This document shows, piece by piece, positions 19,588 through 34,179 of a stretch of 34,931 bases of DNA. The DNA lies in contig JAILIY010000030.1 in assembly GCA_024695025.1 (NCBI GenBank), forward strand, positions 1 through 34,931. The letters run 5' to 3'. This DNA is from Acholeplasmatales bacterium. Lineage in GTDB: Bacteria; Bacillota_I; Bacilli_A; Acholeplasmatales; Anaeroplasmataceae. The translations under genes were made by a program, and so were the position numbers. The notes beneath the pieces are model-generated. The model saw only the letters and a program-made list of their open reading frames with translations. It was not told where the DNA came from and searched no databases. How positions within the stretch are numbered: position 1 is the first letter of the stretch; each line of letters begins with the position of its first letter.

Positions 19588-21213
19588 TTAACGATTCATA
19601 TTTAATTCTTTTTCAATAACGTACATTCTCTTCTTATATTTTTCAATCTTGTCATCAATTGGGTTAATACGAGAAGCTAATTCTCTCTTCTTAGTAACGA
19701 TTGATTTACGACACTTATTTAATTGATCCATATAACCAGCACGTTCCTTGTTAGAATAAACTGGATTGTCTTTTAATACTTGAAGCTTGATTGCTTCTTC
19801 TTCAAGTTTCTTTAATTCATTTAATTCAGGCATCTTAAGTTTTGAATTTTCAAGTTCGAAAATTTCATGGTCAAGTTTTTGACGTTCATCAAGTAATTCT
19901 TGTTTTTCTTCTTGGTGTTCTTCCCAATACTTTTCATTCTTGATCTTTTGGTCAACACGGTCACGCTTACGAATATCAACGAATTTATCGTCTAGTTTTT
20001 TCTTCGCAGCCTTGATCTTTTCAAGACGCATATTTCTTTCTTGCATTGAACATTCAATACCAACTTTAACCTTTGAACCTTTGTGTTCATAACCCTTGTT
20101 ACGAATAATAGATTCATGCATCTTAACTAAGCTTGATAAGATTGCAGTTACTGTACCATGTCTTTTAGCGATATCAATTAGATAATCCCAACAATTGATA
20201 CATACATCTTGAGTAGCAACAAATTTCTTATATGCTTCTACAGTTTGAGTTTCTTTCTTCTTACCGAAGTCAGTTAATGCTTGCTTACTAATCTTAGTAA
20301 CAACGGCGCTAATGTTAGATGCTAATTTATCTTCATAAGTTACAATATCAACACCAAATGTTTGGTTTGCCTTACGCATCATTGGTTCTACTGTATCAAT
20401 TGTATCTTTAACCTTAGCGAAGTTTTCTTCAGATGGAACTTTAGCAAAATCAATACAACTCTTAAGAACATATGCAACCATAATATCGATTAAGTTTGTT
20501 CTTACTGTGAATTGATAATCTTCAAATTCATCTTTTTCAGCATTTTGTAGACATGAATTCCAACAATTGATAGCTTCAAGGAATCTGAAGTTTTGTGGAG
20601 TTGATTGTCTAGCAGCACAGTTACCTTTCATTAACCAAGCGTCACTATTTTTACCATCTAATTCAATTACACGGTTTGCATAGTTTTCAGCATCTGTATA
20701 GTTTTCTGAATCATAAGCATTTTCTGAAAGAATGAATAAGTTTTCAATCATTTGTAATGATCCAGCAGGTGCGCTGTTGTCGATTTGACGTTTGATTTGT
20801 TGAACTGGTTTTGCTTGTTGTACAGGCTTAGCTTGTACAGGTTTTACTACTACTTTCTTAACTACTGTTGGACCTGCTTTAGTAACTGGTTTTGCTTGTA
20901 CTGTAGGTCTAACTTGTGAAACGATACGTTTCGCTGCTTGAGGATCTTGTGTTTGTGCACCAGCTGGCTTTCCAACTACTACCTTTCTTACGATTGTAGG
21001 GGCTGCCTTTGGTTTTAATACTGCATTTTCCTCTGGTTGTTGTGGTGCTTCTTTTACTTCTTGTTGTTTTGCATGTGGTTTGTCATCTACTTCTCTAAAT
21101 AGCGTTTTAGCCTCGTCAACTGAATATTTTGCACCACAAACTTGGCACTCGAACATTCCTTCGACTTTGACGAAGTCGGATTCACCACATAAATCACATA
21201 CTATCTTTTTCAT
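19588..21213 (-). CDS. Zinc-ribbon protein with Pro/Gln/Lys/Val-rich linker, TPR-like region and coiled-coil C-terminus
   Basis: CDLCGESDFVKVEGMFECQVCGAKYSVDEA zinc ribbon; linker repeats PTIVRKVVVGKP / PTVVKKVVVKP / QAKPVQQAKPVQQ; TPR-like SENAYDSENYTDAENYANRVIELDGKNSDAWLMKGNC. Start at 21213 after AAAGGAG. Confidence 0.75.
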   Translation of the reverse strand: MKKIVCDLCGESDFVKVEGMFECQVCGAKYSVDEAKTLFREVDDKPHAKQQEVKEAPQQPEENAVLKPKAAPTIVRKVVVGKPAGAQTQDPQAAKRIVSQVRPTVQAKPVTKAGPTVVKKVVVKPVQAKPVQQAKPVQQIKRQIDNSAPAGSLQMIENLFILSENAYDSENYTDAENYANRVIELDGKNSDAWLMKGNCAARQSTPQNFRFLEAINCWNSCLQNAEKDEFEDYQFTVRTNLIDIMVAYVLKSCIDFAKVPSEENFAKVKDTIDTVEPMMRKANQTFGVDIVTYEDKLASNISAVVTKISKQALTDFGKKKETQTVEAYKKFVATQDVCINCWDYLIDIAKRHGTVTAILSSLVKMHESIIRNKGYEHKGSKVKVGIECSMQERNMRLEKIKAAKKKLDDKFVDIRKRDRVDQKIKNEKYWEEHQEEKQELLDERQKLDHEIFELENSKLKMPELNELKKLEEEAIKLQVLKDNPVYSNKERAGYMDQLNKCRKSIVTKKRELASRINPIDDKIEKYKKRMYVIEKELNMNR

Positions 21214-21654
21214 GTGTTTTCTCCTTTTCATTATTCATATTAACCAACCCTGTAGTACGCTCCTGTTTCCGGTTGACTTCTAAATTGTTTTAAAAATATG
21301 AGAATTCTTACAAAATAGGCACTATCACTTTATTAGCTATTTAAGCACCAAATATAACTAAAAAGCTTATTCTTAAGAATATAGGTGTGCGTTTGTAGAA
21401 TGTAGAACCAAATCTACTAACTCTTTTTTAAATTTTGCATACTACTTTATGTTTAATCGAAGTAAGACTTCGAATATAACCTAATTTATCTATAATCAAT
21501 TGATTTTTTAAAATCGCTTACATACATTATATCTAGAAATATTGTATCATATAAGGATTTTTTTATCAAGTCAATTTTGCTCAAATCATGCTTAAAAAAG
21601 ATGAATAATGCTCGTTTTATTGATAAAAACCGCGTTTTAAACCAAAAAAGAAAA

Positions 21655-21678
21655 AAGCCAAAGCTTATGCTCTGGCTT
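21655..21678 (-). terminator. Terminator overlapping the end of the GT8-PlsC gene
   Basis: AAGCCAaAGC-tta-tGCTcTGGCTT hairpin with an adjacent A-rich (minus-strand T-rich) tract. Confidence 0.6.
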
Positions 21679-23461
21679 GAGTTGTATATTCTAGTTTTGT
21701 ATGATATACACTTTCGTATATTTCTTTCCATACTTCATAATTCTTATCCATAATATATTGAACATTTTCAATATTAGTCTTATTTTTGTCAGGATAAATA
21801 GGTTCTGAAATATGAATTGTATATTCTTGAACCTTAAAACCATCTGGACCAATCTTGTCACTATCTTCCATTGTGATAAAGATAGGTACTACTGGTACAT
21901 TAGCCTTAACTGCAAATTGGAAAGCACCTTTCTTAAGTGGTTTAGGCTTACGGTAATTCCACCACATGCTTTGTTCAGGATATACTAATACTAAATTACC
22001 TTTTTGTAATAATTTATTCATACTTCTCATAAACTTAACCATAGTCTTTGTATTACTTGAAAGTGGTAAAGTGTAGCAGTTTCTCATAAGAAGTCCATAA
22101 AAACCACCAAATGAAGTATAATTACCTTCTCTTATTACTCTAAAGAATCTTCTTTTCTTACGAGCTTTAGATGTTTCAAAAGCTTGTTCATATGCAACTT
22201 GGATTGCAAAAGATTCAAATGCATTGAAATGGTTAGAAGTTAAAATAGCACCGCTATCTAAATTCTTTAAGTTTTCAATACCTTTAATTTCTTTAATTAT
22301 TAAATTTTGTTCCTTCATTTGCTTATTTAAGAACTTTCTTGCTAAGAAATAAGCAAATTTAGTTTTGATTTTAGATCTAATTTTCTTTCTTTCGTAATCT
22401 ACTTGATCAGGTAATAATTCTTTTGAAGGTGGGTCTTGTTCAACATCTTGATCAAATTTACCTTCTAGTTCATATTCTTCAATCTTTCTTAAGACTTTTA
22501 ATCTATCAACAGACTTAATACCTAATTTAGATTTACAATTAACAAATGTATCTATTCTTTGGATTTCTTCATTTGCAAGCTTAACAAGTCCATCGTAGCC
22601 TTCCATATCTTTCTTTAGGCTTTCTTCTGTAACTGAATTTCTAACAGCTAATACTTGATCATAAAATGGAGTCATTTTTGCATACTTCCACCAAATGTCA
22701 GAAAATTGTGAATCACATTTCCATGGTTTTCCCCACATTAGGTAGTGAATCATTTTTGCTTCTTCTGGCTTACATAAAATTTTTAAATCACCAAATGATT
22801 CTGTATTCCAAGCATTGTCAATCCATGTAACTCTATTGAAACAGATAATATTTAAATAATCTTCATCTTGAGTTACTTTACATTCATAAACATTTAATAA
22901 ATTTAAGAATTGTTCTAATACACATTCTTCTCTAAATAATTTACAGTTGATTAAAATATGACCTGCATTGAAGAATTTATGTCTGTCTAAGCCTAAATTC
23001 TTTTCAACATATGTACCAAACAAATCAATTTGTTCCATTGCTTGTTCTGTACATCCACCGATTAAATTATTTCCTAATTCATGGTTATAAAATTCAGAAA
23101 TATCACCAGGAACGATTACGTCACTGTCAATATAAATTGCTTTATCATATTGTTTGAACATTTCAGCGATAAATAATCTGAAATATGTTGTCTTTGTATA
23201 ATAATCTCTAACAGGAAGTTTATCCTTAATAGAATTATAATAAGAAGAAACGTCAACAAATTCTAATTCGAAATTATCACTAATATTTTCGTATGCTAAT
23301 TTTTTGTTTTCCTCATCTATATCAACATTTAGAATATATGCTTTGTAATTGTAATCCTTACTTGCATTTTCCATTATTGATTTTAGAGTTACAGCTGTGA
23401 ACTTGTAATATTTGTTATCACAAGCAAAGAAAATTGGAATAATTTTATCATTCATCTTCAT
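21665..23461 (-). CDS. Fusion: GT8-family glycosyltransferase and PlsC-like acyltransferase
   Basis: GT8: IPIFFACDNKYYKFTAVTLKSI, KAIYIDSDVIV (DxD), FNAGHILINCKLF, HYLMWGKPW. PlsC-like: SGAILTSNHFNAFESFA, FYGLLMRNCYTLPL, LVLVYPEQSMWW, KKGAFQFAVKANVPVVPIFI. AAAGGAG SD. Confidence 0.88.
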   Translation of the reverse strand: MKMNDKIIPIFFACDNKYYKFTAVTLKSIMENASKDYNYKAYILNVDIDEENKKLAYENISDNFELEFVDVSSYYNSIKDKLPVRDYYTKTTYFRLFIAEMFKQYDKAIYIDSDVIVPGDISEFYNHELGNNLIGGCTEQAMEQIDLFGTYVEKNLGLDRHKFFNAGHILINCKLFREECVLEQFLNLLNVYECKVTQDEDYLNIICFNRVTWIDNAWNTESFGDLKILCKPEEAKMIHYLMWGKPWKCDSQFSDIWWKYAKMTPFYDQVLAVRNSVTEESLKKDMEGYDGLVKLANEEIQRIDTFVNCKSKLGIKSVDRLKVLRKIEEYELEGKFDQDVEQDPPSKELLPDQVDYERKKIRSKIKTKFAYFLARKFLNKQMKEQNLIIKEIKGIENLKNLDSGAILTSNHFNAFESFAIQVAYEQAFETSKARKKRRFFRVIREGNYTSFGGFYGLLMRNCYTLPLSSNTKTMVKFMRSMNKLLQKGNLVLVYPEQSMWWNYRKPKPLKKGAFQFAVKANVPVVPIFITMEDSDKIGPDGFKVQEYTIHISEPIYPDKNKTNIENVQYIMDKNYEVWKEIYESVYHTKLEYTTQARA

Positions 23462-23710
23462 TTAATTTTCTCCTTTGGTAATGCTATAAAACATTAAATC
23501 TTTAAATAAAAATGGCACATAACCAAATTTATTTATTATATTATAGACTTTTAATTCATCTTTGGCAAGTAAAATCGATAAAATTGCGTTGTTACAACAT
23601 ATTTTAGTGTTTTTTGTATATTAAAACTTTTATATTTTTATTTCTATCTAGTTTTAAATACCAATAGAGATAGTCACAAATATTTATTATTTAATTTTTA
23701 ACTTTACGCG

Positions 23711-27844: not shown

Positions 27845-30800
27845 TTATAAATCCTCAATTATTTCACTCATTCTCTTTAATGCCTTATATCTGTTACCAA
27901 ATACCAATTGATATTTGTTTTCAAGGCAATATTTCAATTCCTCTTCTGTATCAATATTGTCTATTATAAAATCTTTATTAAATTCTTTAGCTAAATTATT
28001 AAATGATTCAATTGATTTAGAACCACCACTTTTGTAATCATACAATATACAATCGACATTATCATTAAATATATCTACTATATTTTTACTCATAATATTA
28101 ATTTTTAATGATTTAATATCATTTACATTGTTGTTGCATTGATTAATTATAATACCGAAAAATTTAGGATTAATTTTATATTTTTCTAATGCTTTTTTAA
28201 TAAATGAATACAATTCTTTTAAAGTCTCATCATGGACATATACATATACATTAAAAAAGCCTTTTTTAGTTGTATATAGCATCTTTAATTCCATAATAGC
28301 CCTAAAAATAACATATTTGTCTATTTCAATAATCTTATTTTTTCTAATTGCCACTTCTTCAATTTTTGAAAAAGGCAATTCCATCTCATCTAAAGATGGC
28401 ATTACAAAATAAGCATATACTTCCCTTTGGATTAAATCGACTACCTGTTGGTAATTGATTGCAAGTCTATTTTGGTCAATTGCCTCACTTATTCTTGTAA
28501 TCAAATTGTTGTTATAAAATCTAAGTTTTGATAATTCATTATTGTAGTGGGCTATACTGTGGGAATTTGATTCCATATCTATAGCATCATTTAGTGCATC
28601 TAGTGCGTAAGATATAACATCTTGATATGTCTTGTTGATTGTTGATTTATTAACTCTAAAGCAGCCACAATTAAATTTTAATTTAACTCTTTTATTTAAT
28701 TTATATATTTCATCTGAAACATAATTAAATATTTCATTTAAATATTTATCAACTAATCTTCTGTCGCTTAAATCCCTAAAGATGATGGCGTATCTATCTC
28801 TGTCTAGATGGTATGCACTCCATTTGAAATGATTAGATAAATAATCATTGATTTTCTGTCCGACAGTATATATTAACTGATTCATAAATTCTAAACCATA
28901 TAGATCACTATATAATTTAAAATCATCAATTTCAATTATGGCTAAAGCCATATTTAATTTTTTGATTTCGTTATTTAAATCAATTGTTAATTTCAATTCT
29001 GTTTCCATCTTAGAAATTGGATTTTTATAAGCTAATTCTTTTAATTCATTCTTTTCTTTTTTAGATGATGTAATATCATCAATTAAAGAAATAATCCAGA
29101 ATTTACCATCAATTATTATTGATTTAAATGTCTCTTTAATAAATAATTTTTCTATTCCATTATCAAATGGATATTCCATTGTTTCATCTAATAATTCATT
29201 TTCATAAATATCATTATAAATTCTTTTGTATCTTACTCTATAATCTAAATCTATATGATAAATATAATCATCTAATGAAATATCTTCCATTATACCTAAA
29301 ATAGCTTGTGCTGTTTCATTTAAATGGACATAGCCATCTTGACATTCTTTAATGCCTTGAGACATATTATCGATAATGAAAAATTTCTTCTTATTTTCAT
29401 ATTCTAAACTATCTTGATTTAGCCACATCAATAATCTTGTGTTGATAATACTAGTTATCAATTTTAATAATTCATATGTGTTAGGTTGAATAATAAATGG
29501 TGTATGGCCAATAAATGTGATACTTCCAATTGAGTCGATGTTGTTATTTAAAGGCATTGAAAAACCATATATATCATCGCCATATAAATCATTATTTACA
29601 ATATCTTTGTTGTAGCTTCTGTCTGATTGGTCTAAGAATAATTCTGTACCTCTTATGTAGCATTCATAATTTAATGTGTTTTTCAAATCAGCTTCATTTA
29701 AATTCTTATCATAAGCTCTTTCTTTTTTAAAATGTAATCCATACATTTTTCTTTTTAAATACATTAAATATATTTCTTCAACTTGAGTAAGCTTACATAT
29801 TTCAATACAAATAAGTCTATATACTTCTCTAAATTTTGTATCTAAATTCAATTTAGAAATATTGTTAAATAATTTTTCTAATCTCTTAAAATCTTCACTT
29901 ACACCTATAGATAATTTATTGTCTACTTTTTTTATTACTTCTTGTTTTATAACGACAGGTTCGACATATTTAGGGTTTAGCTTTTCTCTTCTTGAATGAC
30001 TAAAATCAAATGCCTCACCCTCAAGTGGTGATATATTATAATTTTTTGTCGCCTCAGGTGTTTTAACAATAGGTATAATTACATCTTCTGGTTTGATTTC
30101 TTTTTCTTTTTTCTTTGGCTTAAAGATTTCAGGTTCAAATTGTGGCTTATCATCTTTATAATCTGATTTAGAAATGTTGTCTAAATCTTTTAAATCTAAT
30201 AATTTTTTTAATTTATTATGATAAGAACTTATTGAAGGGGCACTACCCATAATATTATATAAATCTAAACATGCGTAACAAAAATCAATAGATTCATCTA
30301 AATATTGGGCTTGGGCAAGCTCTTCAAAATCACTTTCTAAAATGGTTGCCTTTTTAATTCCACCAACCTTTAAATATGATTTAATTAAAAGAGTTGCGAT
30401 TTTAAGTGCGTATCTTGAATTATTATTACTTTCTTTTAATAATTCATTACCTTTATTTATACATTCTAAATAATTTTCTTTTTGATATATTATATATAAT
30501 TTATTGTATCTAACAATCAATAAATCATCTAATTTAACATTGTCTAAATAATATTCTTCTACCTGTGGTATTGTTTCTAAATAAGAATCAAAATCGCGTT
30601 CGAAAAAATATATTTTAGATAATTCTAATTTGGCATATACTAATTCTTCTTTAGTGATATCATCTTTTAAATATTCAATTAAAATATTTTTAGCTTTGTC
30701 ATATTGTTTTACTGTAAGGGCAAGTCTTATTAAGTCGTGTAGATAAATACTTTCTTCACTTATAGGTAAATATTCTTTTTTGATTTCAATAAATTTACCT

Positions 30801-31078
30801 ACCTGGTCATATCTTTTACAGCCAAAACAAATATCTATAATACCGTCACATATTTTAATTACTGATTTAGAATCTAGTTTATCAAAATCATTGACGATAT
30901 CATATAAGATTTTTAAGGCTTCATTAACCTTGCCAAGCTTATTTAATATAATAGCCTTATAATGAGCTACTAATATATAATCATATGAAGTTTTAGATTC
31001 TGTCTCTAAATACATATCAAGCTTTTTAATGCTTGATTCTGTCATATCTAGATTTAGTAGTTCATTTAAACTTAGCAT
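27845..31078 (-). CDS. TPR-like / GAF-like / degenerate GGDEF / degenerate EAL multidomain protein
   Basis: N-terminal helical repeats; GGDEF-fold remnant MALAIIEIDDFKLYSDLYGLEFMNQLIYTVGQKI...YHLDRDRYAIIF; EAL-fold remnant AIDQNRLAINYQQVVDLIQREVYAYFVMPSL; AGGTGG SD. Confidence 0.78.
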   Translation of the reverse strand: MLSLNELLNLDMTESSIKKLDMYLETESKTSYDYILVAHYKAIILNKLGKVNEALKILYDIVNDFDKLDSKSVIKICDGIIDICFGCKRYDQVGKFIEIKKEYLPISEESIYLHDLIRLALTVKQYDKAKNILIEYLKDDITKEELVYAKLELSKIYFFERDFDSYLETIPQVEEYYLDNVKLDDLLIVRYNKLYIIYQKENYLECINKGNELLKESNNNSRYALKIATLLIKSYLKVGGIKKATILESDFEELAQAQYLDESIDFCYACLDLYNIMGSAPSISSYHNKLKKLLDLKDLDNISKSDYKDDKPQFEPEIFKPKKKEKEIKPEDVIIPIVKTPEATKNYNISPLEGEAFDFSHSRREKLNPKYVEPVVIKQEVIKKVDNKLSIGVSEDFKRLEKLFNNISKLNLDTKFREVYRLICIEICKLTQVEEIYLMYLKRKMYGLHFKKERAYDKNLNEADLKNTLNYECYIRGTELFLDQSDRSYNKDIVNNDLYGDDIYGFSMPLNNNIDSIGSITFIGHTPFIIQPNTYELLKLITSIINTRLLMWLNQDSLEYENKKKFFIIDNMSQGIKECQDGYVHLNETAQAILGIMEDISLDDYIYHIDLDYRVRYKRIYNDIYENELLDETMEYPFDNGIEKLFIKETFKSIIIDGKFWIISLIDDITSSKKEKNELKELAYKNPISKMETELKLTIDLNNEIKKLNMALAIIEIDDFKLYSDLYGLEFMNQLIYTVGQKINDYLSNHFKWSAYHLDRDRYAIIFRDLSDRRLVDKYLNEIFNYVSDEIYKLNKRVKLKFNCGCFRVNKSTINKTYQDVISYALDALNDAIDMESNSHSIAHYNNELSKLRFYNNNLITRISEAIDQNRLAINYQQVVDLIQREVYAYFVMPSLDEMELPFSKIEEVAIRKNKIIEIDKYVIFRAIMELKMLYTTKKGFFNVYVYVHDETLKELYSFIKKALEKYKINPKFFGIIINQCNNNVNDIKSLKINIMSKNIVDIFNDNVDCILYDYKSGGSKSIESFNNLAKEFNKDFIIDNIDTEEELKYCLENKYQLVFGNRYKALKRMSEIIEDL

Positions 31079-32733: not shown

Positions 32734-34179
32734 TTATTTAGATTTTAATTCTGTAAATATTTCTACTAATCTTTTATCAAGTTTTCCTTCTTTTACCATT
32801 TCATTTAATATGAATAAAGCTTTATCATTTGGAATAGGCTTTTTATAGGGCCTATCTGATGATATTAACGATTCATAAATATCAGAAATAGTTATGATTC
32901 TTACAAATTTAGAAATATTTTCGTCTTTAATATGATTTGGATAACCTGAACCATTTAAATATTCGTGGTGGTTTGAGGCAATTTCTTTAACCTTTTTATA
33001 TTTTCTACCAAATTTTAATTCGTTTAAAATATTGTGAGTATATACGACATGTTTTTCAATTTCGGCTCTTTCGTCTTGAGTTAAAGTGCCCTTTTCAATT
33101 TTGGCATTTAGATATTCTTCATCTGTTAATAATTTTAATTTACCATATTCTGTATTATAAGTTTTGTCTTTGATACTTTCGATAAATTCTTTATCTTCAT
33201 CTGTTAAATATGATTTTTTGTCTAATTCGATAATAAATTCTTTAGCCTTATTTATTAATTTAATTTCATCATCATATAATTCTTTTTCATAATTACCTTT
33301 AAGGTAATTAATTTCAATGCTAGCCTTGATTAAATCATATCTTAATAACATCTTATCTAAGATTGTTTCAAATCTTGTTGCCTTATTTAATATTTTAGAA
33401 GGTACGATGATTTTACCAACATCGTGAAGGTAAGCTGCCATAAGTAATTCTTCTTTTTCGTCTTCTGTAATAATATCATATTTTTTCTCATTAATATAAT
33501 CGACAAATTCACCACAGATTTTGGCAACATTTACTGTGTGGAAGGCATTATATGGAGTTCTTGATTCAATGGCTTTAACCATCGCCTTTACAAATGAATC
33601 TAATAATTCTTTGATGTCATCATATAATTTAATATTATCTAGTAACATACCAGAAAGACTTGATAAAGAATAAATAATTCTTTCAACATCATATGAAAAT
33701 GGTACTACTTTTTTAAATTGACTAGCATTTATTAGCTGCATGACACCTAAGACATTCTTGTCTTTATCAAATAGAGGTAATACAAGTACAGATTCAGTAT
33801 GATATCCTGTCAATTTATCATATTTTTTTGGGCCTTCCCAATTATAATTTTTATCGCTATATACATCTTCTACATTTACTATTCTTTTAGTTCTACCACA
33901 GTAGGCTGCCACACTTGATGAATTGATGTCAACTGGTGGTAAATCAATCTTTTCATCCTTGCCACCCTTTTTAATATTTTGTGACTTTGTAATCATAAAA
34001 AAGAATTCTAATTTATCTTCGTTTTTAAGATATAAAGTACCGCCGTCACAATTAGATATTTTCATACCTGTTTCTAATATATCTTCAAGTAAAACATAAT
34101 AATCATTTTCTTTAGACATATTAGATATGACATCTAATATCTTTTCTATATCTTTATTTAAAATCATCAAAGCCACCAT
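32734..34179 (-). CDS. GAF domain plus HD-GYP domain protein (putative cyclic dinucleotide phosphodiesterase)
   Basis: GAF-like N-terminus (ISNCDGGTLYLKNEDKLEF, SVLVLPLFDKDKNVLGVMQLINA); HD motif AAYLHDVGKIIVPSKILNK; GYP motif IASNHHEYLNGSGYPNHI. ATG at 34167 (MILNK) is an alternative start. Confidence 0.88.
   Translation of the reverse strand: MVALMILNKDIEKILDVISNMSKENDYYVLLEDILETGMKISNCDGGTLYLKNEDKLEFFFMITKSQNIKKGGKDEKIDLPPVDINSSSVAAYCGRTKRIVNVEDVYSDKNYNWEGPKKYDKLTGYHTESVLVLPLFDKDKNVLGVMQLINASQFKKVVPFSYDVERIIYSLSSLSGMLLDNIKLYDDIKELLDSFVKAMVKAIESRTPYNAFHTVNVAKICGEFVDYINEKKYDIITEDEKEELLMAAYLHDVGKIIVPSKILNKATRFETILDKMLLRYDLIKASIEINYLKGNYEKELYDDEIKLINKAKEFIIELDKKSYLTDEDKEFIESIKDKTYNTEYGKLKLLTDEEYLNAKIEKGTLTQDERAEIEKHVVYTHNILNELKFGRKYKKVKEIASNHHEYLNGSGYPNHIKDENISKFVRIITISDIYESLISSDRPYKKPIPNDKALFILNEMVKEGKLDKRLVEIFTELKSK

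Follow-up and report, generated by a model that had tools for sequence, protein, structure and literature searches.

A 598-amino-acid protein of an Acholeplasmatales bacterium joins an N-terminal glycosyltransferase domain of family 8 (GT8) to a C-terminal acyltransferase domain of the LPLAT/PlsC superfamily. With a probability of roughly 0.6, we favor a model where this protein is a bifunctional, cytoplasmic, membrane-associated glycolipid-synthesis enzyme that attaches both a sugar and a fatty acyl chain to the same membrane glycolipid. Our search of the open-access literature uncovered no description of a GT8-acyltransferase fusion or of its pathway, and the fusion appears to represent a conserved bifunctional family that is apparently undescribed. 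What is new is this architecture and the pathway implied by it, rather than the catalytic motif.

The fusion gene and its predicted domains

The gene is located on the minus strand of the window (the whole stretch of DNA that was analysed, 34,931 nucleotides), and its features are as follows.

21665..23461, minus strand: gene for the 598-aa fusion (GT8b~AT2), from the ORF list and translation; ATG start; 80 full-length homologues
22718..23437, minus strand: GT8 glycosyltransferase domain, residues 9-248; PF01501 E 1.8e-40; LgtC, WbbM and GlyE matched by sequence and by fold
23120..23128, minus strand: DSD metal-binding motif, D112-D114; both Asp residues present in 97% or more of the 81 aligned rows and invariant in alignment A1
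22721..22747, minus strand: H239...K245-P-W247, second metal/diphosphate motif of GT8; H239, K245, P246 and W247 invariant in alignment A1
22289..22717, minus strand: linker, residues 249-391; helices at 279-300, 318-332 and 361-383 in the AF2 model
21875..22288, minus strand: LPLAT/PlsC-superfamily acyltransferase domain, residues 392-529; PF01553 E 6.4e-12; predicted fold like LpxM, PlsC, PatA and squash GPAT
22214..22231, minus strand: H411-x4-E416 (HX4D motif with D changed to E, within NHFNAFES); D in 80 of 81 sequences, window codon GAA
21968..21982, minus strand: YPEQS, residues 494-498, start of the motif III block YPEQSMWWNYRKPKP; YPEQS, MWWNY and KPKP invariant in 81 of 81 sequences
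23470..23476, minus strand: ribosome-binding site AAAGGAG, 8 nt before the ATG, read from the sequence
21655..21678, minus strand: intrinsic terminator-like hairpin overlapping the stop codon, with a 10-pair stem and a T-run

The ORF, its coordinates, the GT8 and PlsC-like fusion and the four motifs named in the preliminary description (DSD, H...GKPW, NHFNAFES and YPEQS) are all present as written. The reading frame is unbroken, with neither a frameshift nor an internal stop. A frame or annotation artefact that joins two genes can be rejected, because the same fusion is found on 80 other contigs.

The GT8 half scores 139.5 bits against PF01501 (cut-off 24.3), covers positions 1-250 of the 253 in the profile, and keeps the DxD and H-x5-K motifs of family 8. 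The spacing of H239 and K245 is the same as that of H244 and K250 in LgtC. Sequence matches to LgtC, WbbM and GlyE (E values of 1e-11 to 1e-24) are accompanied by strong fold matches, and the GT-A fold, the DxD motif and a QDED block are common to these enzymes and the fusion. The acceptors of LgtC, WbbM and GlyE are LPS or protein glycans, and we know of no case in which any of the three carries an acyltransferase domain.

The acyltransferase half reaches 45.9 bits against PF01553 (gathering cut-off 23) and carries the LPLAT catalytic motif, as HX4E in the window protein and as HX4D in 80 of the 81 sequences. The LPLAT fold and HX4D are common to the fusion family and PlsC proper (1-acylglycerol-3-phosphate acyltransferase; fold match 5kym). 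However, the domain scores 38.6 bits against TIGR00530, where the cut-off is 102.95, the family reads YPEQSMWWNY in place of the EGTR motif III of PlsC, and PlsC has no counterpart of the attached GT8 domain. The late acyltransferases LpxL/LpxM provide the top fold match (5kn7), but the match to their profile PF03279 is below the cut-off (11.9 versus 22.3 bits, E 0.12). PatA, the mycobacterial PIM mannose acyltransferase, is also matched by fold (5f2z/5oce), but the identity is 12-13% and PatA is not fused. When PDB sequences were searched with a profile built from the acyltransferase alignment, nothing matched.

The full-length model (pLDDT 87.8, pTM 0.80) has a GT8 part that matches WbbM, LgtC and GlyE, and the acyltransferase part modelled alone reaches a pLDDT of 90.3. 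With the latter, the structures recovered at E <= 0.001 were solely LPLAT enzymes, namely LpxM, PlsC, PatA, and squash and human GPAT, and in the PDB fold search the scores for LpxM and PatA were about equal to that for PlsC. The fold alignment excluded sequence L155 (genome G320), part of which is masked with X. The helix at 361-383 is basic and directly N-terminal to the acyltransferase core in the AF2 model, which would fit a membrane-associated LPLAT.

Family spread, operon context and repeated fusion or fission

A scan of GTDB genomes gave 466 related places, and the 80 best were retained. Each of these 80 is a full-length GT8-acyltransferase fusion with 53-67% identity, and their hosts are Acholeplasmatales, Anaeroplasma, Lachnospiraceae, Oscillospiraceae, Ruminococcus, other Clostridia, and one Treponema MAG. 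In the 81-sequence alignment, mean identity to the window protein is 69% for the acyltransferase half and 54% for the GT8 half, and the least conserved part is residues 271-385 of the linker (43%). Across the 81 sequences there is essentially no variation in the DxD, H...KPW, N-H-F and YPEQSMWWNYxKPKP blocks. The preliminary description had considered that the acyltransferase domain might be unconserved in orthologues, whereas it proves to be the better conserved half.

Simple contamination can be rejected as the source of the Treponema match, because 41 of the 79 genomes in the Treponema genus group carry fused genes, split genes or a distant version of the acyltransferase half (AT2). Split, adjacent genes predominate among these matches, fused genes occur occasionally, and one case has the reverse order. 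In Clostridia the fusion is patchy, since matches were found in just 2 genomes, Roseburia among them, from a 399-genome sample of the phylum around Roseburia.

A second acyltransferase gene, AT1, is located directly upstream of the fusion in 67 of the 80 loci, usually with a gene for a second GT8 protein, GT8a, between the two. The order AT1, GT8a, fusion is found at 66 loci, and one further locus has AT1 and an unusual fused frame. The three genes mostly overlap or nearly overlap, often by 1-5 nt. AT1 (for example L038 6381-7169, L124 5894-6676 and L167 6267-7070) codes for a small LPLAT-like protein that is covered weakly by Pfam and NCBIfam. It carries NHTxxxxD (HX5D) and YPEAHIWP, found in 96 of 101 cases by pattern, and the HX5D form is apparently fixed.

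Some relatives from the window's genus and family have the two halves split, with separate adjacent genes for GT8b (the GT8 half of the fusion) and AT2. With few exceptions, split loci in Bacillota/Mycoplasmatota and Treponema keep the two genes adjacent or within a single operon, in several gene orders; an exception is genome G007, where they are on different contigs. On the AT2 tree, which was built quickly and has some long branches, the fused or split label needs about 7 changes, at least 3 of which are forced by strongly supported branches. In other relatives a GT2 gene replaces GT8b in the slot upstream of AT2 (L123 6844-8076, L122 6645-7922 and L162 7782-9047). A CrtO-type glycosyl-lipid acyltransferase (PF18927) adjoins GT8b/AT2 in some Treponema and several Bacilli loci. 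None of the gene types that would be specific to an acceptor (flippase, CDP-alcohol transferase, isoprenoid or sterol genes) accompanies the fusion loci consistently.

Several additional arrangements were observed. In L156 (2268-5110), a second GT8b copy is located directly upstream of a GT8b~AT2 fusion. A divergent HTH_3 regulator gene is found just upstream of the operon in the Acholeplasmatales-like relatives L115, L116, L118, L119, L123, L124 and L127. Downstream of the fusion, Acholeplasmatales conserve a protein of 547 aa (window 19588-21231) that has zinc-ribbon-like CxxC motifs at its N-terminus and gives weak TPR matches.

We also searched the window genome by family and by region. 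The fusion is its only GT8 gene. A PlsC candidate on contig C18 scores 77.7 bits against PF01553 and 81.3 bits against TIGR00530, the latter itself under the cut-off of 102.95. Because this canonical PlsC candidate is the better one, housekeeping phosphatidate synthesis need not depend on the fusion, and a housekeeping PlsC role for the fusion is disfavored both by this candidate and by the fusion's own TIGR00530 score. On contig C59 (L167 5120-7070), an AT1 homologue overlaps, and is directly behind, a gene for a GT4 glycosyltransferase that weakly resembles glycolipid synthases (LTA-anchor and monoglucosyl-DAG) at scores well below their cut-offs, so that the genome has another glycosyltransferase-acyltransferase pair; a GT8a gene was sought behind AT1 at the end of this contig and was not found. 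A diverged CrtO-like gene on C143 (L165 5253-5825) is located beside ACP-, FabF-, FabG-, FabZ- and AccBC-like genes, which look like a fatty-acid synthesis cluster when the translations are inspected by eye. Of the 22 genus members checked for the two genes, all 10 with GT8a also have AT2, and all three with CrtO have AT2 but lack GT8a; both are small, post hoc patterns from incomplete genomes.

Elsewhere in the window, genes for a large GGDEF-EAL protein (27845-31078) and an HD/GAF-domain protein (32734-34179) are close together, which suggests cyclic-di-GMP signalling in this organism.

A candidate acylated-glycolipid pathway

The union of GT8b and AT2 recurs in fused, split and reordered forms and is accompanied by further glycosyltransferase and acyltransferase genes. 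Therefore, the best explanation is that the two domains carry out steps on one glycolipid. The analysis shows the fusion, its conservation, the predicted folds, the operon linkage and the repeated fusion and fission. Both activities are inferred from motif conservation in the sequences, and we likewise infer the shared substrate, the order of the steps, the acceptor and the membrane association. The N-terminal GT8 domain would use a nucleotide sugar to glycosylate a lipid or lyso-lipid acceptor, retaining the configuration of the sugar, as is the class reaction of GT8 enzymes. The C-terminal LPLAT domain would then O-acylate that glycolipid on its sugar or lipid part, with acyl-ACP, acyl-CoA or acyl-phosphate as the activated fatty acid, H411 acting as the base and E416 taking the usual role of Asp. 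In most relatives, AT1 and GT8a of the same operon would perform a paired round of these reactions. The window genome instead has its AT1 homologue beside the GT4 gene on another contig, and it also has the diverged CrtO-like acyltransferase.

The preliminary description proposed a bifunctional enzyme that acts on one acceptor. Action on one glycolipid gains support from the genome context, including occurrence in at least 80 genomes, repeated switching between split and fused forms in two phyla, and the extra glycosyltransferase and acyltransferase genes; a glycolipid, a lipoteichoic-acid-like anchor and a glycan are all candidate acceptors.

Precedents exist for the second reaction. PatA acylates a mannose of PIM and thus provides an example of an LPLAT that acts on a glycolipid sugar. 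GlcB, a PlsC-like protein from the glucoselipid operon of Rouxiella badensis, probably acylates a glucose hydroxyl of the glucoselipid (PMC12299268). From these two examples, enzymes with the LPLAT fold can acylate sugars, although GlcB is partnered by GNAT and HAD proteins and lacks a glycosyltransferase partner. CrtQ and CrtO of staphyloxanthin synthesis follow the same logic of a glycosyltransferase paired with a glycosyl-acyltransferase, and CrtO-like genes adjoin GT8b/AT2 in some genomes. However, the CrtQ-CrtO pair uses another glycosyltransferase family, an unrelated acyltransferase family and a carotenoid acceptor.

A different route to a glycolipid is unlikely but deserves consideration. 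The GT8 proteins might first glycosylate glycerol, glycerol phosphate or a lyso-lipid, after which AT1 and AT2 would acylate the glycerol hydroxyls to yield a glycosyl-diacylglycerol, which is the lipid anchor itself. This scheme would account for two LPLATs and two GT8s that travel together, and it is consistent with the glycerolipid acyltransferases (TIGR00530) being the nearest named families to AT2 and with the resemblance, well below cut-offs, of the GT4 beside AT1 in the window genome to LTA-anchor and monoglucosyl-DAG synthases. However, one recurrent partner belongs to the CrtO family, and Staphylococcus aureus CrtO acylates a sugar rather than glycerol, forming its ester at the C6'' hydroxyl of a glucosylated lipid (PMC5587911). 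Moreover, LpxM and PatA match the acyltransferase fold about as well as PlsC does, and the window genome already has a housekeeping PlsC candidate.

We consider it highly unlikely that the two domains use separate substrates and that fusion merely co-regulates them or co-localises them at the membrane. Split genes in many genomes, including those on different contigs in G007, would be compatible with such independence, but repeated fusion and fission, together with adjacency in shuffled orders in two phyla, point to sequential or joint use.

Under the preferred reading of joint action on one glycolipid, the recurrence of the pair as joined or neighboring genes in many gut bacteria and Treponema indicates that it is probably part of an undescribed acylated-glycolipid pathway. 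More tentatively, gut anaerobes, Anaeroplasmataceae and treponemes might share a widespread, undescribed glycolipid built by modular pairs of glycosyltransferases and LPLATs, one pair of which has been repeatedly fused, and to which AT1 would contribute an HX5D motif unlike the standard HX4D. If so, the family marks membrane glycolipids of a conserved but uncharacterised class in bacteria that are abundant in gut and rumen, among them Roseburia, Ruminococcus-type Clostridia, Anaeroplasma and Treponema. In such commensals, glycolipids at the surface are candidate targets of host immune recognition and, where the bacteria lack a wall, as Anaeroplasma does, candidate contributors to membrane stability. 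Because the fused form can be tested as a single gene in a heterologous host, the pathway is readily accessible to experiment.

The HX4E and YPEQS motifs

The preliminary description raised the possibility of altered acyltransferase chemistry on the basis of HX4E, which we reject. The family has the standard HX4D, with D in 80 of 81 sequences and E in the window protein alone. Among 117 AT2 sequences the window's E is the sole genuine one, as two other non-D pattern matches fall elsewhere in their proteins; a much more divergent relative, L160, reads NHFSPLE. HX4E is also natural and functional in the late acyltransferases of lipid A (LpxL/LpxM), where E127 of Acinetobacter baumannii LpxM is critical for activity (PMC6286764). 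Judged from these sequences, D416E is an ordinary, conservative substitution that is private to the window protein.

Lowered acyltransferase activity in the window species is nevertheless possible. The window protein departs from the family at 9 of 185 conserved positions, the second most among the 81 sequences, and three of these departures (D416E, C409S and C527I) are at conserved acyltransferase positions and might represent early decay. Such a loss would be compatible with the glycolipid-synthesis role in the remaining family, but we regard it as quite unlikely, given that nothing has changed at N410, H411, S417 or anywhere in the YPEQSMWWNYRKPKP block, that the end branch of the window protein on the AT2 tree is 0.19 versus a median of 0.23, that the gene has no frameshift or stop, and that E works in LpxM. 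Least probable of all is a base-calling or assembly error at codon 416, where GAA is one base from the Asp codons GAT/GAC and the draft assembly is fragmented (178 contigs, 78% complete, the only genome for the species), but where the nearby private changes C409S and C527I suggest true lineage divergence and the gene is free of frame errors.

YPEQS could be mistaken for a degraded motif, but its invariance across the family (81 of 81) leads us to reject this interpretation. It corresponds to the PEG(T/S) motif, since YPEGSMW or FPEGSEW stands there in distant homologues that occupy the same slot of the operon.
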